Below, piece by piece: positions 5,930-62,748 of a stretch of 64,000 bases of DNA. The translations under genes and the position numbers were made by a program. This DNA comes from Fidelibacterota bacterium (GTDB taxonomy: Bacteria; Fidelibacterota; Marinisomatia; Marinisomatales; TCS55). Position 1 is the first letter of the stretch. Every line of letters starts with the position of its first letter. The stretch spans positions 1-64,000 of the forward strand of contig JACNKN010000060.1 of assembly GCA_014382015.1 (NCBI GenBank), written 5' to 3'. The notes under the pieces are model-generated. The model was not told where the DNA came from, made no database searches, and was given only the letters and a program-made list of their open reading frames with translations.

Positions 5930-7445
5930 AAAGTTCCTCCAGTACACTACTGCGCTTTTTTTGCGCCCGCATCCGAATTAACCCAAACCCAACAATGAGA
6001 AAAGACGGCAATACTATATTTACCCACTTCCAAGTTCTTTTCGATTCATCCGATATTTCTTCCAACGGTCGGGAAGTGATTTCGCGAGATCGAAGTACAA
6101 TTAGATCTCTGTCACCGACAAGATAATCAACTGAATTCATCATAAATATATGATTTTCCGGGGATCGACCGCCACCTTGGTCTAACAAAAATTCTGAATC
6201 ACTTACTATGACGATTTGGCTCATCAACCCATTTTCATCTACTTTTTCTGATCGTGCGCCCAGTATCTTTTCTGGTTGATTAAACATCCTTAGAAATGGA
6301 TTCTGCTGAGGATCGGGATTAAGATTAAAATTGTCTCTCATTTCTCCTGAATGATCAGAAGAAAATAATAATGGAATAAAATTTACTTTATCGTCCAAGG
6401 ATGAGTCCGGTTGGATTTCACTTGAAAAAATCAATTGGAGCTGCTCCAAGCCAGCCACCAAGGGCTCATTTTGGTTAAAGTTTCTCACCACAGGTAGGAG
6501 TGGATATTCCATGGGCACATTCATCCGAATTGGGCCCATTTGCTGCTGAACACTCACACGGCCACAAACCTGATCTGTGACTAAATTTTCAACTATTTTA
6601 AAACCATAGGGTTCAACAATTGAAAATATATTAGACTGAATTACGAATGCTTGTTGAATCTGGAGGTTAGTTTTCACGCGATTCTGAGCTAAAAATAAGT
6701 TGCCACCCCGGCTTAAATAGGATTGCAAATGCATTACTTCATCTAATGATAGAGAATCGGAAACACCATTCATTAGCAATACACCAATTTCCATAGGAAC
6801 TTCATCCGAAAGGCTTACTGTTTGAACATTATAGCGCTGGCGCAACACATTCTGGATATTTTGTGTTTGGCTTTCCTGCCCTTCTATCTGTGCGATACCC
6901 ACTGTTGGTTTATGGGTTTCAACCAGTTTCTTTATCCGTGTTGTAATTTCATATTCCAATCCAGTCGTGGTTTGTATCACAGGGATAACTTCTTTTTTAT
7001 CTTCGTAAAGCAACACCATTCCCATGAGGACCCGCTTTACCTCCATTTTATCATTTTCAACCACTTGCATCTGAACTGGCATAACACCCGCTTTTTGGGC
7101 TTCCTGCTCAATATCTTTACCATCCTCCGGTCGGAAAAATTCAAAACGGATATTTCCATCAGACAGGGCTTCATACTCTTCCAGGATATCCTGAAGATAT
7201 CGGCGATTATTGGCATATTCCCCTGGTAAATCATCAGAGAAATACACTTTCATAGCCAATAAATCATCCACTTGATCTACCACCGATTCGCTTGAAATAG
7301 ATAAGGAATACATATCATTATCCGTTAAATCCCAGCGAAAGAAATGGTTTTTTGAAATGCCATTTAATAAAAATAAAATAACAACTAAAAGTATTCCTGG
7401 AACAATGACTGATTTTTTGAAATCCATATTATTAAACTTTATCAT
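5922..7445 (-). CDS. GldG-like ABC transporter auxiliary protein
   Basis: This 507-aa protein has one transmembrane helix near the N-terminus (SVIVPGILLVVILFLLNG), a long periplasmic domain, and a second helix near the C-terminus (WVNIVLPSFLIVGFGLI) followed by basic residues. The domain with SSESVVDQVDDLLAMKVYFS and LEEYEALSDGNIRFEFF is typical of the ABC-type auxiliary (GldG) family, which has a GATase-like fold without catalysis. It begins 3 nt after the permease stop, between the permease and the DUF4340 gene, which is the usual order in such operons. Confidence 0.8.
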   Translation of the reverse strand: MIKFNNMDFKKSVIVPGILLVVILFLLNGISKNHFFRWDLTDNDMYSLSISSESVVDQVDDLLAMKVYFSDDLPGEYANNRRYLQDILEEYEALSDGNIRFEFFRPEDGKDIEQEAQKAGVMPVQMQVVENDKMEVKRVLMGMVLLYEDKKEVIPVIQTTTGLEYEITTRIKKLVETHKPTVGIAQIEGQESQTQNIQNVLRQRYNVQTVSLSDEVPMEIGVLLMNGVSDSLSLDEVMHLQSYLSRGGNLFLAQNRVKTNLQIQQAFVIQSNIFSIVEPYGFKIVENLVTDQVCGRVSVQQQMGPIRMNVPMEYPLLPVVRNFNQNEPLVAGLEQLQLIFSSEIQPDSSLDDKVNFIPLLFSSDHSGEMRDNFNLNPDPQQNPFLRMFNQPEKILGARSEKVDENGLMSQIVIVSDSEFLLDQGGGRSPENHIFMMNSVDYLVGDRDLIVLRSREITSRPLEEISDESKRTWKWVNIVLPSFLIVGFGLIRMRAQKKRSSVLEELYG

Positions 7446-7448
7446 AAT

Positions 7449-8162
7449 TTATTTCCACCTCCGCACTTCTATGGTTTGAATTGTCATAAAGATGAAAAAT
7501 CCAATCATAGAGAAAAAATAGATCAAATTCCTTGAATCAATTACCCCCCGAGAGATATTCGATAAATGATAATCCACTGCTAAAAACTGAACAAGTCCCG
7601 CTATAGAATGGGGCACAAATATTAATGTTTTATCCAACATATAAAATACAAGCACCACAAATACACCAATGATAAAAGCAACAACCTGGTTTTCTGTAAC
7701 ACTACTGGCATAGGTACCAATTGCCGTAAATGTTGCTCCCATAAGTGCCAACCCTAAATATCCACTGAAAATTGCACCTATATCCACATTGGTTCCCACT
7801 GCTATGAGGGTAAAGAAATGAATAGATGTGGCTGCCAATCCCAAAAGAATCAGACTAAATCCAGCCAGAATTTTCCCCAGAACAAATTCATGGGTATTCA
7901 AAGGTAATGTTGAAATTATTTCCATTGTTCCCATATTGTTCTCCCGGGCAATAAGTCCCATGGAAACAGCCGGAATAAAGAAAAGATATACCAGCGGCAC
8001 AATGTCAAACAATGTACGTAAATCAGACTGTCCAAAAAGGAAAAATGTATTTGTAAAGAAATATCCATTAACCACCGCGAATATCACCAGAAAAATATAA
8101 GCCATGGGACTATTAAAAAATCCCAACATTTCTCTGCGAAAAACCATTCTTATATTAAGCAT
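7449..8162 (-). CDS. ABC-2 type permease, GldF/NosY-like
   Basis: The permease of about 237 aa has six hydrophobic segments and the motif LIARENNMGTMEIISTLPL between helices two and three, characteristic of ABC-2 permeases of the GldF/NosY group. I placed the start at the ATG at 8162 (MLNIRMVFRREML), which overlaps the ATPase stop by 8 nt (ATGCTTAA) with GGGGG upstream. The frame is open to an ATG at 8174. It should form the membrane channel with the adjacent ATPase. Confidence 0.85.
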   Translation of the reverse strand: MLNIRMVFRREMLGFFNSPMAYIFLVIFAVVNGYFFTNTFFLFGQSDLRTLFDIVPLVYLFFIPAVSMGLIARENNMGTMEIISTLPLNTHEFVLGKILAGFSLILLGLAATSIHFFTLIAVGTNVDIGAIFSGYLGLALMGATFTAIGTYASSVTENQVVAFIIGVFVVLVFYMLDKTLIFVPHSIAGLVQFLAVDYHLSNISRGVIDSRNLIYFFSMIGFFIFMTIQTIEVRRWK

Positions 8163-9099
8163 TGATACCCCCATCCGTTGTTAGGTCCCTGAAAATATCT
8201 TCTAGGTTTGTTGTATGAGGTGTCATCTTCAATATGGCCCAATGATTGTCCACTGCATAACGGAATAATTCCTCACGGGGATCCTGCCCTTTATCATATT
8301 CAAATTGAACCTGACTAACACCCTTGGATTCTTCCATTGAAATAAATTTTACACTGGGTAGTTTTGCCTGAATATGTTCAATCGATTCCACCACAGCACC
8401 TTTGATTTCCATATTCAAAAGCACATTCCCCATAAAATTGCTCATGAGTTCATCACTGGTTCCATTGGCTACAATTTCACCTTCATGAATAATCATGATT
8501 CGATCAACGGTCGCCTGGATTTCCTGAAGGATATGGCTGGACATAAATACCAGTTTTTCTTTCCCCAATTTTTTAATCAATCTCCGAATTTCAACAATCT
8601 GATTGGGATCCAACCCAGTAACCGGTTCATCTAAAATCAATATTTTTGGATCGTGAATCATGGCAGCAGCTAAACCAATTCGTTGTTTATATCCTTTGGA
8701 GCACTCTGATATGGTTTTATGAATGACACCGTTTAATCCACATTGCTCTACAACTCTTGCTAAAGCGTTTTTGAATTCACGACCTATAATATTTCGAACC
8801 CCTGCCAGAAATTCAAAATATTCATAAACGCGCATTTCTGTATAAAGTGGATTCAGTTCAGGCAAATAGCCAATCTGTTTCTGAATTTCATGGGTATCGT
8901 CAATAATATTCAAATCATTGACCTCGATCTTTCCCTCTGTGGGTACCAAATACCCCGTAATCATTTTAAGCGTGGTCGTTTTTCCCGCGCCGTTGGCGCC
9001 TAAGAAACCAACAATTTCTCCATCCTGAATTTCAAAGGATATCGATTTTACCGCTTCTACGGGACCGTAATTTTTGGACAAATCCGTGACTTTTATCAC
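8155..9099 (-). CDS. ABC transporter ATP-binding protein, GldA-like
   Basis: The 314-aa ATPase shows Walker A GANGAGKTTT (around residue 34), Q-loop region YLPELNPLY, signature CSKGYKQRIGLA, Walker B ILILDEPVTGLD and the switch histidine in FMSSHILQE. The C-terminal 90 residues form the extra domain usual for ABC-2 exporters of this type. It is the first gene of the four-gene Gld-like operon. The start is GTG at 9099; a strong AGGAGG lies 12-17 nt upstream, unusually far, so the spacing or start is slightly uncertain. Confidence 0.9.
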   Translation of the reverse strand: MIKVTDLSKNYGPVEAVKSISFEIQDGEIVGFLGANGAGKTTTLKMITGYLVPTEGKIEVNDLNIIDDTHEIQKQIGYLPELNPLYTEMRVYEYFEFLAGVRNIIGREFKNALARVVEQCGLNGVIHKTISECSKGYKQRIGLAAAMIHDPKILILDEPVTGLDPNQIVEIRRLIKKLGKEKLVFMSSHILQEIQATVDRIMIIHEGEIVANGTSDELMSNFMGNVLLNMEIKGAVVESIEHIQAKLPSVKFISMEESKGVSQVQFEYDKGQDPREELFRYAVDNHWAILKMTPHTTNLEDIFRDLTTDGGINA

Positions 9100-55014: not shown

Positions 55015-56076
55015 ATGAACAAAACAATACTTCTGATTACAACCATTTTTATTCTCGGTTGCCAGGATCAAGATATTGAATACATTGGCAGTACCTCTGG
55101 TACGACCATCAAGGAAGTTGTAAACGGTACATGGTTGATCAATCCTGAATATATTCGCAAAGGTTGTTTTGCAGGAAAAGATTGTATCCCCAGTTTAGAA
55201 AATCCTGTAAAAACGACCCACGATGACCCGATTGTGGATTATTTAAATGAAGAAGACTTGGTGATCGGCATCTGGGATATGGGTCAATATATCGCCTATC
55301 CCCATAATATCATGGACTGGCATGAAGTTGCAAATGAACATGGATATTCTATTTCTTACTGTCCCCTCACCGGGAGTGCATTGCATATTAAAACGGGGAG
55401 TGAATTTGGCGTATCGGGAATGCTGTATAACAGTAACCTCATTATGTATGATCGAAAATCCGACAGTTACTGGCCCCAAATGTTTTTGAAATCTGCAAGA
55501 GGACTTCGATCCGGTGAATCCTTTAGACTGAAACCCATGCTGGAAACCACTTGGGGCAATTGGAAAAAACTATTCCCCAATTCAAAAATTCTCAACGGGG
55601 ATTATGGGTTTTCCCGGGATTATGCAGAATATCCCTATGGATTTTATAAAGAATGTAATTCGAAGGAATGTGGCGATTATATTTTATTCCCCATCGAAAA
55701 CCTGGACGAACGGCTCAAAGCAAAGACCAGAGTCATGGCCATAATTACGGAGAAAAAACAGAAAGCCTATGTGATCGAAAGTTTTGATTCGCCAACCATT
55801 ATTAATGAAAATATTGGCGGTATCCATCACTCCATTATTATATCCGGCCCAGATAACATGGCCATTGCATTTGAAACGGAAACCCCCCTGACAATCAATC
55901 AATGGGATATGAATATTGGTTCAATTATTCTTGAAGATGGAAAAGGAAACCTGTGGAATATATTGGGTCGATCAAAAGATGGATCTTCCCATTCACTCAC
56001 CCAGGCCATGGCCTATATTGCCTATTGGTTCTCTCAAGGTGCGTTTTACCCTGATACTGAAATTTATGATAATTGA
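55015..56076 (+). CDS. DUF3179 lipoprotein, copy 1
   Basis: 353 aa with lipoprotein signal ending LGC. DUF3179 landmarks: ISYCPLTGSALH, FGVSGMLYNSNLIMYDRKS and DSYWPQMFL. N-terminal CFAGKDCIPSL is shared with copy 2. DUF3179 proteins are secreted and of unknown function; the conserved SYCPLTG cysteine could bind metal or be modified. Closely similar to the next gene, so a tandem duplication. Confidence 0.85.
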   Translation: MNKTILLITTIFILGCQDQDIEYIGSTSGTTIKEVVNGTWLINPEYIRKGCFAGKDCIPSLENPVKTTHDDPIVDYLNEEDLVIGIWDMGQYIAYPHNIMDWHEVANEHGYSISYCPLTGSALHIKTGSEFGVSGMLYNSNLIMYDRKSDSYWPQMFLKSARGLRSGESFRLKPMLETTWGNWKKLFPNSKILNGDYGFSRDYAEYPYGFYKECNSKECGDYILFPIENLDERLKAKTRVMAIITEKKQKAYVIESFDSPTIINENIGGIHHSIIISGPDNMAIAFETETPLTINQWDMNIGSIILEDGKGNLWNILGRSKDGSSHSLTQAMAYIAYWFSQGAFYPDTEIYDN

Positions 56077-56172: not shown

Positions 56173-57201
56173 ATGTTAAAAAAACTAATTATTACCACCA
56201 CATTTATATTCATAGCGTGCAGTAACCCTGCATCCTCATCCGTTAATTTAGATGAATCTGACTGGCTCATTAATACAGACTATGTGCGACAGGGGTGCTT
56301 TTCCGGAAAGGACTGTATTCCCAGTTTAGAAAACCCGGGGAAATCATCTATAAATGGCGCAAACCTGGAATTTTTAGATGACAATGACTTGGTGGTTGGG
56401 GTGTGGAATGGCAAAGAATATGCTGCTTATCCCCACTCTATTCTGGATTGGCATGAAATCGCTAATGAAAGCGACTATTCAATTTCATACTGTCCCCTCA
56501 CAGGGAGTGCACTGCATTTTGAAACGAGTGGTGAATTTGGGGTTTCCGGAATGCTCTATAACAGTAACCTGATTATGTATGATCGAAAGTCAGACAGTTA
56601 TTGGCCTCAAATGTTTTTGGGATCTGCATCAGGAGAACGGCAAGGGGATAAACTTAATTTGAAACCCATGCTTGAAACCACGTGGAAAAACTGGAAGTCA
56701 CTCTTCCCAAATTCAAAAGTAGTCCATTCCCTTACGGGATATTCTCGGAATTACAATGCCTATCCCTATGGCCGATACAAAACTTGTAATTCGAAAGACT
56801 GTGGCGATTTTATCTATTTCCCCATATCCAATTTGGACGATCGCCTCCCTGCAAAAGAAAGGGTCTTATCCATTATTACCCAATCCAAACAAAAGGCTTT
56901 TGTGATTTCTGCCATTGGTTCACCCAGGGTAATCAATGAAACCATCGGCGGTGAAAAATTTGCCATCGTCATTTCCGGAAATGATAATATTGCCATGGCG
57001 TTTGAAACGAATGATAACCTATCCATCCAATCCTGGGATATGGCTAATGGAGCAATAATATTGAAAGATTCCCAAGATAATCGGTGGAATATTTTAGGCA
57101 ACTCTCTGAGCAATGGAACCAATTTGGACGCAGCAAATGCATTTATTTCTTATTGGTTTTCTCAAGCTGCTTTTTACCCGAATACGGAGATTGCCAAATG
57201 A
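56173..57201 (+). CDS. DUF3179 lipoprotein, copy 2
   Basis: 342 aa with lipoprotein signal ending IAC. Same landmarks as copy 1 (SYCPLTGSALH, SGMLYNSNLIMYDRKS). Its stop overlaps the start of the outer-membrane protein gene by 4 nt (ATGA), so the three genes 55015-58130 probably form one transcript. Confidence 0.85.
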   Translation: MLKKLIITTTFIFIACSNPASSSVNLDESDWLINTDYVRQGCFSGKDCIPSLENPGKSSINGANLEFLDDNDLVVGVWNGKEYAAYPHSILDWHEIANESDYSISYCPLTGSALHFETSGEFGVSGMLYNSNLIMYDRKSDSYWPQMFLGSASGERQGDKLNLKPMLETTWKNWKSLFPNSKVVHSLTGYSRNYNAYPYGRYKTCNSKDCGDFIYFPISNLDDRLPAKERVLSIITQSKQKAFVISAIGSPRVINETIGGEKFAIVISGNDNIAMAFETNDNLSIQSWDMANGAIILKDSQDNRWNILGNSLSNGTNLDAANAFISYWFSQAAFYPNTEIAK

Positions 57202-58130
57202 AAATTCGATTTTTTACAGCTATCATCATTCTATTCACTTCAACTCAGGCCATAGGCCAGGTATGTTGTTCCCTGGTGGGCGCCATCGATCAGGGAGGCG
57301 GTCTTTCCTCCTCTCATTGGGGAACACACTGGCCTTCAGCTTATGATGATTTTAAAAGCACACGCTGGGTGGTGGGATTAAATTCTTTAGCCCGAAAGGA
57401 TAATCACCTGAATATTCGTTACGGACCGTCTGTATCGACTTTTTTTCAGGGATCAAAATATGTAACAAAAAAAATTATTGGATATGGTCAAGTTGATTTG
57501 AGTACGGCTATTCTGAAAGAGGATTTATCTTTTGATCCCCAACAAACCCGAATCGATGTTTCGGGCATTCGTCTGGGTGCACGGTTTGCGCTTTCTAAAA
57601 AAGTTGGATTTGGAGCCATTGAATGGAATCACACCAATCAACCAAAACTATCGAACCGTTCGTTTACCTTTCCACTGGCATCAGTCCCGTCCCTTTCTGC
57701 ATCATGGATTAACCGGGTATCCATGCCCTGGCAATCAAAAAACCCTTTCTTTTTATCCTCAGTAACTTACTCAGTACAATTCACAAGGAATTTAAAAACA
57801 GACCCGGATGTTTTTATCGATTCCCATGGATCCATAAATTTTTCTTCCAGCATTCAGACAAATGATCAATTCACTTTTGCACCATTCCTTCGTTTCGAAA
57901 CACAAAAACTATTGGCGCCTCTGTCTCCATGGGAGGAGAACCGGGCGACTCGATGGTTAAACCAGGTAAATGTTGGCCTTGATTTGACACCCAAAAGTCA
58001 TCAATGGGCCTGGTTACACGGCAGAATAACACTCCCCCTTATGTGGTGGGCTTCACGAGACGGTTTTCCCGATGGAACAGAACCGGTGATTCAATTTTCA
58101 TTTGTTGGGAACTGGCAGGGTGTATTTTAA
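57198..58130 (+). CDS. Outer-membrane beta-barrel protein with Cys-Cys at the mature N-terminus
   Basis: 310 aa. Signal peptide (TAIIILFTSTQAIG) is followed by QVCC, then alternating aromatic strands such as FALSKKVGFGAIEW and VNVGLDLTPKSHQWAW, typical of a beta-barrel of 12-14 strands; it ends GNWQGVF. A longer frame begins at 57084 inside the preceding gene, but the ATG at 57198 has the signal peptide and a 4-nt overlap. A paired cysteine right after the signal peptide resembles the UxxU position of the candidate selenoprotein at 59210-60178. Function unknown. Confidence 0.65.
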   Translation: MKIRFFTAIIILFTSTQAIGQVCCSLVGAIDQGGGLSSSHWGTHWPSAYDDFKSTRWVVGLNSLARKDNHLNIRYGPSVSTFFQGSKYVTKKIIGYGQVDLSTAILKEDLSFDPQQTRIDVSGIRLGARFALSKKVGFGAIEWNHTNQPKLSNRSFTFPLASVPSLSASWINRVSMPWQSKNPFFLSSVTYSVQFTRNLKTDPDVFIDSHGSINFSSSIQTNDQFTFAPFLRFETQKLLAPLSPWEENRATRWLNQVNVGLDLTPKSHQWAWLHGRITLPLMWWASRDGFPDGTEPVIQFSFVGNWQGVF

Positions 58131-58219: not shown

Positions 58220-58300
58220 TTTATTCTCGTGAGGACAGGAGTCATCACTCAATCAAATTGTAGATTTCCTTTTAGTCAAAATTTTGATAGATATTAAATC
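58220..58300. repeat. Direct repeat A, left of the metal cassette
   Basis: About 80 nt closely similar to 61421-61500 in the same orientation. Both start TTAT(T/C)CTCGTGAGGACAGGAGTC, here shortened, and continue TCACTCAATCA, TAGATTT, then TTTAGTCA and ATATTAAAT-type segments. The core is the hairpin GTGAGGAC / GTCCTCAC, with one mismatch in this copy. The remaining part of 58131-58580 holds no gene. Confidence 0.7.
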
Positions 58301-58827: not shown

Positions 58828-59217
58828 TTAAGGGGCTGGGAATTCCTGAAAATTTGTACTGAGAATTTTTTCCATATATTCGCAAGCCTTCTTCGCCAGA
58901 GAATTGGAGGAAATGGAATAATAAATTGTGAGCCCTTCCCTTCTGTTTTTGACGAGCCTTCGATCTTTTAATTTCCGTAATTGATGTGAAATCGCTGAAA
59001 CTTCCATCTGCAGAATATCTGATAAATCGCATACGCAGAGTTCATTGGTTTGAGATAAACAATAGAGAATTTTCATCCGAGTTGGATTTGCAAACATGGC
59101 CAGTACATCAGTGATTTTATTTAAATCCTTTTGTTGACTAATATCCTCACTTAATCCAATTAATTTATCAGAATCCACATAAGATCGAATGCAGGATCTT
59201 GACGTTTGATTATTCAT
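58828..59217 (-). CDS. ArsR/SmtB-family metal-responsive repressor
   Basis: 129 aa. The winged helix (FANPTRMKILYCL, DILQMEVSAISHQLRKL, RREGLTIYYSI) contains the alpha3 metal motif ELCVCD (Cys61 and Cys63), with Cys53 and Cys9 nearby; such thiols bind Hg, Cd, Pb or As and release DNA. Last gene of the cassette; its ATG overlaps the outer-membrane gene stop by 8 nt (ATGAATAA). A palindrome before the first gene (61354-61369) fits as its operator. Confidence 0.9.
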   Translation of the reverse strand: MNNQTSRSCIRSYVDSDKLIGLSEDISQQKDLNKITDVLAMFANPTRMKILYCLSQTNELCVCDLSDILQMEVSAISHQLRKLKDRRLVKNRREGLTIYYSISSNSLAKKACEYMEKILSTNFQEFPAP

Positions 59218-60178
59218 GGGTAAATACCTTTCTAAAACTGAATATTAATGTCCACGGTTTTGTGTGAGAGTTCACCTGTTCCAAGTCTTCACCGGCTAAT
59301 GCAACATTATAAAATCCGGGCATCATTATACCGGCAGTAAATAAATAATTTGCCCGATGCCAATTGAACCCGAATCCCGGTTGAATAATCAACCCTCCGG
59401 AATTGGGTGCTTTTTCCCCTTCCCAGAAGTCAATTCCCTTGTGAATCATTGAAATGGAACCATATGGAACACTGCCTAAAATTGTTTTATTTTGCCAATA
59501 TGCCAGGAGATCTAAGGTGTTTTTTTGTCCGGCTCGAAACCCGAATGCATTCTCTTTCAATGAAAATTCATAACGGTACACCGAACCGATTAAAACCGGA
59601 AAATGAGAACGATAGAAAAACTGGAATTCACCAATGCCTTTCCAAACGCCTTCACTCATGCTAAAATGGGTATGGTCTTCTTCATTATTACCGAGAAGAA
59701 ATGGGTTCTCCTCCACCATACTGCCAGATGGAATGATTAAACCTAGTCCGGCAAAAAGACGGCTGCCGGGACCAAAATCTGCATTTTCAATAATCCGTCG
59801 AAAAAGAATCCGAGTATCGGCAAACCCTGAAACAGATTCTGAACGATGGTGAATATTGGGTTCCGAACCCAATGTCATTGATCGTCTCCCGGCAGAAATA
59901 CTGGCTTCAAAATTCCAGCGATCATTGATGCCGTAGATTATATTAAACGTCGTTAAAAATGATTGGAGTTCACCTTCATGGTCATCTGTTTTATCATTGG
60001 TACCGTGTCCCCAAATAATCGATTGGTTCAGAAGATTACCCCCAACCAGAAAATCACCCTGATTTAAACCGATACCTGTGTTTGAACTCCCGACCGGAAG
60101 TGATGGATTCGCTCAGAGGGGTCATTGTCCCCAAAGGGCGCCCATGAATAAAAGAAGTGAAATTATTAAATTACGCAT
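59210..60178 (-). CDS. Candidate selenoprotein: outer-membrane protein with UxxU motif (two in-frame UGA)
   Basis: From ATG 60178 one frame runs 322 codons to TAA at 59210, broken only by TGA at 60124-60122 (codon 19) and 60115-60113 (codon 22). The start encodes a signal peptide (NLIISLLLFMGALWGQ), then U-P-L-U-ANPSLPVG, and a beta-barrel-like body (GINDRWNFEASISAG, FADTRILFRRII) ending KVFTHE. All 100 codons between the ATG and the next in-frame Met at 59878 read as sensible protein apart from the UGAs. The ATG overlaps the CopZ-like stop by 8 nt (ATGCGTAA), as do other genes here, so the start is well supported. A hairpin after the UGAs fits a bacterial SECIS. If the UGAs are not read, only 18 residues are made; internal initiation at 59878 would lack a signal peptide. 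Confidence 0.72.
60086..60101 (-). promoter_or_regulatory. Candidate bacterial SECIS hairpin
   Basis: RNA ACUUCC-GGUC-GGGAGU: six pairs (one U-G) and a GGUC tetraloop. The stem starts 11 nt after the second UGA, and the loop is 17 nt from it and 26 nt from the first UGA, inside the range usual for bacterial SECIS elements. A guanine at the first loop positions is expected for SelB binding; the fdhF element of E. coli likewise carries GGU in its loop and an 11-nt spacing. Confidence 0.6.
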
Positions 60179-60656
60179 GTTGGATTTCTATGTTTCCCTT
60201 TTGAAGATTCTTTACAAAACCACTCACATCTCCCAGGCAGCATTTGCCTTTTGGATTGCTCACCTCACACGTGCACGCACCCTGTTTCACTTTTTCCCTG
60301 ATAGACAACTCAATCCTAGAATGGCCATTTTTGGTTATATCCTCTTTGATCGCTCTCCGGGAGTGCTGGAAGCAATAACACAGGTTTTGTTTATCATCAG
60401 GATTTTTCAAATGAAACGAAGTGACTAAATCATTGTGATAAATAATAATGTCATTTTCTTCTGAATAATAAACCGTATTATCGTCAGGATTTGTACAAAT
60501 GAACCCTGATTTAAGTTCAGCATAAAGCGGATGATCTCTTCGGGTGAGTGAACGAATCGTTGCTAATTCAACTTTTTTCCCTTTCTCACCACAAGTCTGA
60601 CAGACTTGTTTTCCAAAAGATTGATCTGAATTTGTCTCAGAACAGCAATCAGCCAT
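60171..60656 (-). CDS. CopZ-like iron-sulfur/zinc metallochaperone
   Basis: 161 aa, soluble, with many cysteines: Cys4-Cys5, QVCQTCGEKGKKVE (CxxC), FICTNPDDNTVYY, LCYCF, and ACTCEVSNPKGKCCLG. These match the CopZ N-terminal zinc/[2Fe-2S] type domain found beside metal transport genes. There is no C-terminal HMA domain here; the HMA domain sits in the preceding MerT fusion. Starts on the last base of the merT-like stop (TAATG) and ends within the outer-membrane gene start. Confidence 0.8.
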   Translation of the reverse strand: MADCCSETNSDQSFGKQVCQTCGEKGKKVELATIRSLTRRDHPLYAELKSGFICTNPDDNTVYYSEENDIIIYHNDLVTSFHLKNPDDKQNLCYCFQHSRRAIKEDITKNGHSRIELSIREKVKQGACTCEVSNPKGKCCLGDVSGFVKNLQKGNIEIQHA

Positions 60657-61333
60657 TATAGGGTTTTACTTTTATTTGTGCAGCAGGAATTTCCTAAACG
60701 ACAGGATTTATTTGACACACCGAAAAAACCAGCTTTCGATATTTTTTTATCAGAAGTGGATTTCAGCTTTGCTTTGTATCCCATCTTTTTCACCAATCCT
60801 GGTATATCTTTTTGATGAATAACCGATTCATCTAAGGCGCAAACCATAGACTCATTGGCATAATCAACCTGGCAGGATGTGATACCTTTTGTGGCGGCGA
60901 GACCCCCTTCTAACCCTTTGGCACATCCTTCGCAGGTCATGCCTTCAATATTCCACTCGGTCGCCGTAACCGTTTCCTGGACTTCTGCTTTTGGGGATTG
61001 TCCATAGAGAATGTCTCCATAGTAAGGAAAAAGGACTAACCCGATGATGACGGGTGTCACCATTAGCAACAGGCGTTTTTGTTTTTTTTGTTTTTCCATG
61101 ATATGCTCCTTGTCAGTTTCACAGCAATCTGAATTCTTTTTTTGAAAAAATACGTTGAAATATGCAACCGCAACCAACCCGAAAGTCAATAATGTGGTGT
61201 ATGGCCGGATGTGTTCAAAAAAGCCAAAGGCACCAAAAGCAGTTGAACCAAATAATAATATCAAAAGCGGTCCGGTACAACAAAGTGAGGCACCAAATGC
61301 GGTAAGGACGGTTGCAATGATTGTTTTACTCAT
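60656..61333 (-). CDS. MerT-type mercuric transporter fused to HMA (MerP-like) domain
   Basis: 225 aa. The N-terminal three-helix MerT domain has the paired cysteines ASLCCTGP (Cys18-19) and a second pair DCCETD (Cys70-71). A fourth helix (VTPVIIGLVLFPYYG) precedes an HMA domain with GMTCEGC (Cys134 and Cys137). The tail adds SCRLGNSCC. Such MerTP fusions move Hg(II) across the inner membrane toward a reductase, but no mercuric reductase gene is in the window. Good ribosome site (AAAGGAA). First gene of the cassette. Confidence 0.85.
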   Translation of the reverse strand: MSKTIIATVLTAFGASLCCTGPLLILLFGSTAFGAFGFFEHIRPYTTLLTFGLVAVAYFNVFFQKKNSDCCETDKEHIMEKQKKQKRLLLMVTPVIIGLVLFPYYGDILYGQSPKAEVQETVTATEWNIEGMTCEGCAKGLEGGLAATKGITSCQVDYANESMVCALDESVIHQKDIPGLVKKMGYKAKLKSTSDKKISKAGFFGVSNKSCRLGNSCCTNKSKTL

Positions 61334-61420: not shown

Positions 61421-61500
61421 TATTTATCCTCGTGAGGACAGGAGTCCTCACTCAATCATATCTTAGATTTTATCTTAGTCATATTTTAGATATCATTAAA
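61421..61500. repeat. Direct repeat B, right of the metal cassette
   Basis: Second copy of the element at 58220-58300, same orientation. Its core is a perfect hairpin: GTGAGGACAGGAGTCCTCAC. The rest of 61334-61640 contains no gene I can support. Confidence 0.7.
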
Positions 61501-61640: not shown

Positions 61641-62366
61641 TTAAATTTTAATAATGGACTTATCCTTGAATAAGAATTGGTTGGGCAAGCCCAATTGAGA
61701 ATACAAGCCAGGCGGGACACCAATATCTGCCAGGTAAAGATCACCGACACATTTTTTTGCCTCCGGATCACTCAACCCTGTTTTGGGCAATGCCAATGTC
61801 ATGGTCGCTTTTGCATGGATACACAATTTGGTGAAGGAACCATCCGTGGCATTGAGTCCCGATGGCACATCTAAAGAAAGTACATTTTTATTTTGAGAGT
61901 TCAATATTTCTCGAATCACATGAGCAGGGATTCCCCGGGGTTCATCTGTAAGTCCATATCCGATAATGGCGTCAATAATAAGGTCAGCTTTTTGAAATAC
62001 CCCCAATGGATCGGATTTGTTAGCAGAGATAAGGTCCACCGATAATTTTTTTAAAGTATTCCATCGTTTGAATGGTACTTCTTTTAACCGACCTTCCCTG
62101 GCTGTTAATACAACTGTGACTTCTGCGCCTCGATTTGAAAGATGGCGGGCCGCCACCAACCCGCCTCCCCCGTTGTGCCCTCCACCACAAACAACAATTA
62201 TTTTTGGACATGAGGAGCCAGACAATAAATCAAATGCAAGATCTGACAAATTTCTTCCGGCCATTTCCATCATTTGTTCCAGTTGAATGCCGTAAGATCC
62301 AAGCATGAGTTGATCGACCAATTGCATTTGATCGGCAGTGATGGCAGGAATTTTATTTTGTGTCAT
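61641..62366 (-). CDS. nnrE: NAD(P)H-hydrate epimerase
   Basis: 241 aa YjeF N-terminal domain: QLMLGSYGIQLEQMMEMAGRNL at the start, the nucleotide loop VVCGGGHNGGGGLVAARHL (residues about 58-73), DLIIDAIIGYGL and LSLDVPSGLNATDG. It interconverts R and S forms of hydrated NAD(P)H, a repair step. The usual loop reads NNGGDG; here the Asp is Gly (residue about 68). No fused NnrD dehydratase domain. The start overlaps the thioredoxin gene end by 14 nt. Confidence 0.85.
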   Translation of the reverse strand: MTQNKIPAITADQMQLVDQLMLGSYGIQLEQMMEMAGRNLSDLAFDLLSGSSCPKIIVVCGGGHNGGGGLVAARHLSNRGAEVTVVLTAREGRLKEVPFKRWNTLKKLSVDLISANKSDPLGVFQKADLIIDAIIGYGLTDEPRGIPAHVIREILNSQNKNVLSLDVPSGLNATDGSFTKLCIHAKATMTLALPKTGLSDPEAKKCVGDLYLADIGVPPGLYSQLGLPNQFLFKDKSIIKI

Positions 62367-62748
62367 TGAATTTCGTTAATACCTTTTTCATTTGTTCCCA
62401 TGAATGAAATCCTGGCTGATGGTACACTGTTTTTCCATTTGAATCAAGAATTATAATTGTCGGCAATGAAACCACTTTATATTTATGCGCCAAAGAAAGT
62501 CCTTTGTCTGTATCAATATCTATTTTTAATGAAATGAAATGCTCTAATTCTTTTTTGACCGTTTTATCCGTAAATGTTTCCCGATCCATCCGTTTGCAGA
62601 AATGGCACCAGTCTGCATGGAATTTTATCATAACCGGCTTCCCCGAAACCATCGCTTCTTGGACTGTCAAATCAGAAAATACGGATTTATCACCGCCGAG
62701 AAGAACCGATAATGTGAGTCCTATAATTAAGAATGTTTTATTTTGCAT
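62353..62748 (-). CDS. Exported thioredoxin-fold protein
   Basis: 131 aa with signal peptide (TFLIIGLTLSVLLGG) and a thioredoxin fold: active site DWCHFCKRM (Cys48 and Cys51), and the cis-Pro loop VVSLPTIIILD. Most like the periplasmic thiol:disulfide domain of DsbD and thioredoxin_7-type proteins. AAGGA precedes the ATG. Linked to nnrE by overlap. Confidence 0.85.
   Translation of the reverse strand: MQNKTFLIIGLTLSVLLGGDKSVFSDLTVQEAMVSGKPVMIKFHADWCHFCKRMDRETFTDKTVKKELEHFISLKIDIDTDKGLSLAHKYKVVSLPTIIILDSNGKTVYHQPGFHSWEQMKKVLTKFNDTK

Follow-up and report, generated by a model that had tools for sequence, protein, structure and literature searches.

A predicted UxxU selenoprotein with an outer-membrane barrel fold, encoded beside MerT-like and CopZ-like genes in Ca. 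Neomarinimicrobiota

The window, that is, the whole stretch of 64,000 nucleotides analyzed in this study, contains on its minus strand a cluster of four genes transcribed in the order MerT-HMA fusion, CopZ-like chaperone, UxxU barrel gene, and ArsR. The first gene (60656..61333) encodes a fusion of a MerT-like inner-membrane protein with an HMA domain (PF02411, PF00403), with a MerTP_fusion-like match below the cut-off. The second (60171..60656) encodes a CopZ-type Fe-S/zinc metallochaperone (PF18423; NF047645 CopZ_Nterm_CC above the cut-off), and the last (58828..59217) an ArsR/SmtB-type metalloregulator (PF01022; NF033788 above the cut-off). The metal-operon context proposed in an earlier reading of this DNA (the sequence-only reading) is thus supported by Pfam and NCBIfam for all three families. 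The third gene, located at 59210..60178, is the subject of this study. Its ATG at 60178 lies within an 8-nt overlap with the CopZ-like gene, and its TAA (59212-59210) overlaps the ArsR start at 59217; both couplings had been claimed before and were found again, and the coordinates given then are correct, the strand, previously unstated, being minus. The plus-strand reading of the same interval contains stops throughout and was rejected.

When UGA is read as an open codon, the gene has 322 codons, and its sole in-frame stops are the UGAs at codons 19 (60122..60124) and 22 (60113..60115), so that re-reading the frame gave the same result as the sequence-only reading. With U for UGA, the N-terminus of the product is MRNLIISLLLFMGALWGQ-U-P-L-U-ANPSLPVG. 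Both UGAs fall, as had been noted, just after a predicted signal peptide comprising codons 1-17 (MRNLIISLLLFMGALWG; 60128..60178), assigned from the sequence, the family pattern L-x-G/S-Q, and signal peptidase I rules. The conservation of L-x-G/S-Q at the end of the signal peptide points to cleavage before Q18, and therefore the mature protein probably begins with Q-U-P-L-U. The U-x-x-U motif occurs once within the window, with 0.00 occurrences expected. Under the standard code, the gene would yield either an 18-residue peptide or, from an internal ATG, a 222-residue fragment without the signal peptide and without three of the twelve strands of the modeled barrel.

Several other features were observed around the cluster. 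Near-identical intergenic repeats, CTCGTGAGGACAGGAGTC-x-TCACTCAATC, flank the ArsR/UxxU/CopZ/MerT genes at 58226-58254 and 61429-61457; none would be expected by chance, the similarity extends around them, and they are a possible mobile or regulatory element. On the plus strand, two tandem homologs of DUF3179, a listed selenoprotein family elsewhere, are present in the Cys form (YCPLTGSALH) at 55015-56076 and 56173-57201. The stop of the second overlaps the start of a gene at 57198-58130 (plus strand) for another predicted exported, barrel-like protein, which has GQVCC at its mature N-terminus. DUF3179 (confirmed by Pfam in L105) also adjoins the UxxU barrel gene in the related loci L105-L107, where it is followed by a similar protein with GQACC. 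Place and motif agree between these proteins and the product of 57198-58130, but their sequence homology is not significant; nor is that of 57198-58130 to the UxxU barrel family.

Elsewhere in the window UGA is an ordinary stop, as the sequence-only reading had stated: it terminates 9 of the 42 long frames, and what follows it is either a short extension or the beginning of another gene. No second conserved frame broken by UGA was found within the window. One candidate, at 23689-21197 on the minus strand, has a frame of 278 codons ending in TGA and followed by 552 open codons; the selenoprotein reading was rejected, since the first part is a glycosyltransferase-like protein and the second an in-frame amidohydrolase-like protein with its own ATG.

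Homologs were sought in 101 relatives and then in 245 genomes of Ca. Neomarinimicrobiota, the phylum to which UGA-open searching was confined. The gene was found in 84 of the 245 genomes, and about 79 of these have two in-frame TGAs. The exceptions are a U-x-x-C form in G019 and a C-x-x-U form in G091, and no gene-bearing genome was found to lack both UGAs; the remaining few of the 84 have fragments or weak matches that leave the N-terminus uncovered. Among the N-termini inspected directly, 58 of about 60 have U-x-x-U. In an alignment of 26 sequences with 29 to 47% identity to the window protein, both motif columns are invariably Sec or Cys, and further invariant residues are Q18, N24, L27, P28, G30, H67, H110, H111, R112, E114, H169, H171, and W252. 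Both UGAs recur in dozens of homologs, down to about 30% identity, and in every case read both positions of the homologs are occupied by Sec or Cys, the comparison that the sequence-only reading had proposed as a check. Searches of GTDB contigs were done with the motif written as Cys codons, which misses the Sec forms: the single protein gave no match, and the alignment gave one relative, L051, with UxxC. PHROGs and plasmids yielded no match to the protein; a single DNA match in viral contigs (L119) was rejected as chance, its frame being full of stops.

A paralog lies directly behind the UxxU barrel gene in three loci (L105, 5886-6965; L106, 3979-4992, minus strand; L107, approximately 5950-6929). 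The L105 and L106 paralogs match the family profile and have QCALU after the signal peptide, while the L107 paralog has QCAMC at the same place. The occurrence of CxxU and CxxC at equivalent sites indicates that Sec and Cys interchange there.

Two stops near the beginning of a frame are typical of gene decay, and one may ask whether this is a pseudogene, a sequencing error, or a genuine early stop. We consider any of these extremely improbable, since about 79 genomes retain these two UGAs, the protein is conserved on both sides of them, and there is no intact alternative reading. The independent presence of the UGAs in so many genomes rules out sequencing error, a concern of the sequence-only reading.

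The complete set of selenocysteine genes, whose presence had been named earlier as a test, was found in the genome containing the window (2.5 Mb, 90 contigs, 94% complete): selA (521 bits) with an adjacent selB (364 bits), selD (412 bits), and selC, the tRNA-Sec with a UCA anticodon. The SelD of this genome (L049, G000:C90) is itself a Sec form with the motif HGAGUACK. Among high-quality genomes, selA is present in 30 of the 30 that carry the UxxU barrel gene, and none of the approximately 20 of 94 without selA carries it (Fisher p ~2e-4, uncorrected for relatedness, with reduced genomes of one family contributing much).

A candidate bacterial SECIS hairpin, ACUUCC-GGUC-GGGAGU, is located at 60086..60101 (minus strand; apical loop 60095-60092). 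It is formed by the L-P-V-G codons following the second UGA and has a 6-bp stem and a 4-nt loop, which across the family is GGUC, AGUU, or AGGU. The distance from UGA to the loop is 17 nt for codon 22 and 26 nt for codon 19, and the bacterial SECIS model has a spacing of 16-37 nt; the spacing, loop length, and stem length all lie inside this model (PMC13188914). Since both distances are within the range, a single SECIS can serve both UGAs, and we infer that it does so.

The case for this element rests on comparison between sequences. In 59 sequences, the six stem pairs are formed in 94.4% of cases versus 74.5% in shuffles, and the covariation score is 0.562 versus 0.190 in shuffles, a value reached by 0 of 500; when the stem is slid by one to three columns, covariation is at most 0.13. 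RNAalifold recovers the same hairpin unprompted, with a consensus of -9.28 kcal/mol. The most informative pair joins the wobble bases of the Leu and Gly codons, with CG, GC, UA, AU, UG, and GU all occurring, and since these compensatory changes are synonymous, protein constraint cannot explain them. In the loop, the invariant Pro is encoded only by CCR and Val only by GTY; conserved Pro and Gly codons in the vicinity, by contrast, occur in all four variants. The window hairpin alone folds at -6.4 kcal/mol, and its isolated sequence has a more stable fold of -7.0 kcal/mol. By itself the hairpin does not reach the energy threshold of the SECIS model (-7.5), which the consensus does. Folding the window's SECIS as a single sequence gave no signal (z near 0), and the covariation test was used instead. 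An Rfam scan of the window gave no match. The CxxU paralog keeps the SECIS, whereas the all-Cys paralog of L107 has CCGGCGGGC where the loop stood, indicating that the SECIS is absent where Sec is absent.

These observations bear also on whether the UGAs are decoded as a standard amino acid, by near-cognate read-through or a code change. Formally this could happen, but we regard it as very improbable: UGA stops other genes of the window and serves as the stop of several UxxU barrel genes in relatives, the homologous residue is Cys wherever UGA is absent, and a SECIS and the Sec machinery are present. Thus we predict, with near certainty on these comparative grounds, that Sec is inserted at both UGA codons. 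The selenoprotein with a UxxU motif suggested by the sequence-only reading accordingly gains conserved UGAs, Cys exceptions, sel genes, and a covarying SECIS that had not been sought before.

The window protein had no family match in Pfam at the gathering level, in NCBIfam, or in a PDB sequence search. Weak matches to PF13557 (phenol-degradation-pathway barrels, Phenol_MetA_deg), which we take to be equivalent to COG4313, were given by four of the 26 relatives, with a best E of 4e-6, and the window protein gave none. An AlphaFold2 model built on the family alignment has twelve strands (mean pLDDT 81, pTM 0.79). Its best fold matches are 5o67 and 4rl8, with E 1e-9 for FapF, and superposition on the COG4313 channel 4rl8_A gives a TM of 0.65/0.77 and an rmsd of 3.9 A. 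The barrel model and the weak matches in relatives both support the outer-membrane location assumed in the sequence-only reading. According to the strand order of the model, the conserved histidines would lie at extracellular loops or strand ends. Residues 13-31, including UxxU, have pLDDT below 50, and because the model is uncertain there, the position of the motif was taken from the solved COG4313 structure, a 12-stranded barrel in which about 14 N-terminal residues enter the lumen from the periplasmic side (PMC4493636). By this analogy, UxxU would be part of the N-terminal plug of COG4313-like barrels.

Metal-related genes lie near the UxxU barrel gene in part of the relatives. Among 40 other loci, raw counts of homologs near the gene are about 9 for MerT-HMA, 11 for CopZ, and 11 for ArsR (range 9-12). 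In L079 the row consists of MerR, MerA (551 bits against a cut-off of 454), a protein of 81 residues with CxxC, and the UxxU barrel gene, and in L107 the order is MerA, MerT-HMA, ArsR, and the UxxU barrel gene. Only six of the 245 genomes have true MerA, and five of these six also carry the barrel gene, compared with 84 of 245 overall. HMA lipoproteins are encoded beside it in L096, L111, and L112, an SO_0444 Cu/Zn exporter with HMA adjoins it in L094, CusA flanks it on either side in L097, and a cation-efflux protein (CDF) adjoins it in L111. No obvious metal gene is seen in about 16 of the 40 neighborhoods, many of them in small marine genomes and some on contigs that end there.

Two further observations concern genes close to the UxxU barrel gene in relatives. 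Small exported Cys-rich proteins with CC motifs are encoded upstream of it in L096, L109, L110, and L112, and those that were searched matched nothing in Pfam or NCBIfam. L088 has, a few kilobases away from the UxxU barrel gene, a MerA-like FAD oxidoreductase gene (7628-9067, minus strand) in which UGA replaces the codon for the first Cys of the active site (GGTUVNEGCIPTK), and MerA-like matches with one TGA were also found in G189, G190, G191, G192, and G193. Judged by its sequence, this oxidoreductase is possibly another unlisted selenoprotein.

Of the mercury-type operon described by the sequence-only reading, the soft-metal context stands. Mercury in particular is only partly supported, because the window has MerT-HMA only and its genome contains no true MerA, the linkage to mercuric reductase being that of L079 and L107, and because some relatives have the gene near Cu/Zn efflux genes or near no metal gene. 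It is therefore possible that the selenoprotein is a channel for Cu(I)/Ag(I), for arsenic or tellurium species, or for hydrophobic organics, and that the mercury link is incidental. The CopZ-type chaperone of the operon, CusA in L097, the SO_0444 exporter in L094, and the absence of MerA from the window's genome all favor this explanation, as does the implication of COG4313 channels in the uptake of hydrophobic molecules (PMC4493636). On the other hand, MerT-type partners recur, true MerA stands beside the gene in two operons, and genomes with true MerA nearly all carry it. We consider such a substrate rather unlikely; for soft metals other than mercury, this explanation overlaps with the soft-metal role proposed below.

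The affinity of selenols for Hg(II) and other soft metals is much higher than that of thiols. Given that both residues are Sec, we suggest that the pair probably acts as a soft-metal ligand, whichever the metal. The main rival for its role is a redox switch, in which a diselenide/diselenol couple would gate the channel or reduce a substrate via periplasmic thioredoxin-like proteins. The UxxU spacing equals that of the thioredoxin-type CxxC, a redox function is assumed for the majority of known selenoproteins (PMC13188914), and thioredoxin-like genes are located close to the window's cluster (62353-62748) as well as in L106, L107, and L090. However, the protein has no thioredoxin fold, the motif being on the N-terminal tail of a barrel, and the recurring operon partners are metal-transfer proteins; we hold a redox switch to be unlikely.

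We tentatively propose that the protein is a dedicated outer-membrane port for mercury or soft metals, with a diselenolate site where the pore opens to the periplasm, and forms the outer-membrane step of a mer-type pathway; this full reading is plausible, if somewhat short of probable. SelB and tRNA-Sec would decode both UGAs with the help of the single SECIS hairpin that closely follows the second one, and the product would be an exported beta-barrel of the outer membrane whose mature chain bears U-P-L-U at its beginning. The fold would be that of a 12-stranded COG4313/FapF-type channel whose segment before strand 1 enters the barrel from the periplasmic side, and the two selenolates, placed within the pore or beneath it, would bind soft metals. 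An ion such as Hg(II), or a comparable thiophilic species, perhaps in the form of neutral or lipophilic complexes, would meet the conserved histidines of the extracellular loops, and the metal would then be handed to the thiol relay of the operon, consisting of the HMA domain, the MerT-like membrane protein, and the CopZ-like chaperone, under ArsR control.

If this proposal is true, mer-type systems gain an outer-membrane component, one SECIS serves two UGAs nine nucleotides apart, selenium use is tied to metal handling in an abundant uncultured marine phylum, and a selenoprotein family keeps both Sec residues almost without exception across that phylum. Standard gene calling would truncate the protein in about one in three of the genomes sampled from this phylum.

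The sequence-only reading knew of no described selenoprotein of this family, and none is present among the 119 selenoprotein families and subfamilies of the 2026 inventory (PMC13188914) or among the models of NCBIfam release 20. Being absent from both, the UxxU outer-membrane barrel is by these tests a new selenoprotein family; a literature search found no paper naming it, an earlier mention elsewhere being possible. A paired-Sec site in an outer-membrane channel is likewise absent from the inventory, in which the outer-membrane barrels are of the GSU2204/MtrB type and the FCYXU TonB receptor, with one Sec each, and UxxU occurs in metal-binding, FmdB-like, and peroxiredoxin-like proteins (PMC13188914). 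GSU2204/MtrB-PioB (NF041027) and the FCYXU TonB-dependent receptor (NF049945) are thus also predicted Sec outer-membrane barrels, but they belong to other families and have a single Sec; at E 0.1, neither model matched the window protein or 25 relatives.

Among known metal-binding selenoproteins, the UxxU metal-binding (seleno)protein NF041115 has, like the window protein, UxxU in a soft-metal context, and its model gave no match to the window protein or the 25 relatives. The MerT selenoprotein, the MerT/CopZ fusion NF045683, and CopZ_Nterm_CU are families related to the MerT, HMA, and CopZ partners in the window operon, whose own MerT and CopZ bear Cys rather than Sec. NF041115 and the MerT/CopZ selenoproteins are small HMA-type or inner-membrane proteins, unlike the outer-membrane barrel of the window. 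The COG4313/PF13557 channels and FapF share with this barrel twelve strands, a similar length, and a segment before strand 1, whereas a Sec pair and conserved extracellular histidines are not known to have been described for the COG4313/PF13557 family. Finally, we know of no component of a mer operon that is an outer-membrane selenoprotein. With the classical mer operon (MerR, MerT, MerP, MerA), the loci described here have in common MerR and MerA in L079, MerA and MerT in L107, and MerT-HMA in the window.
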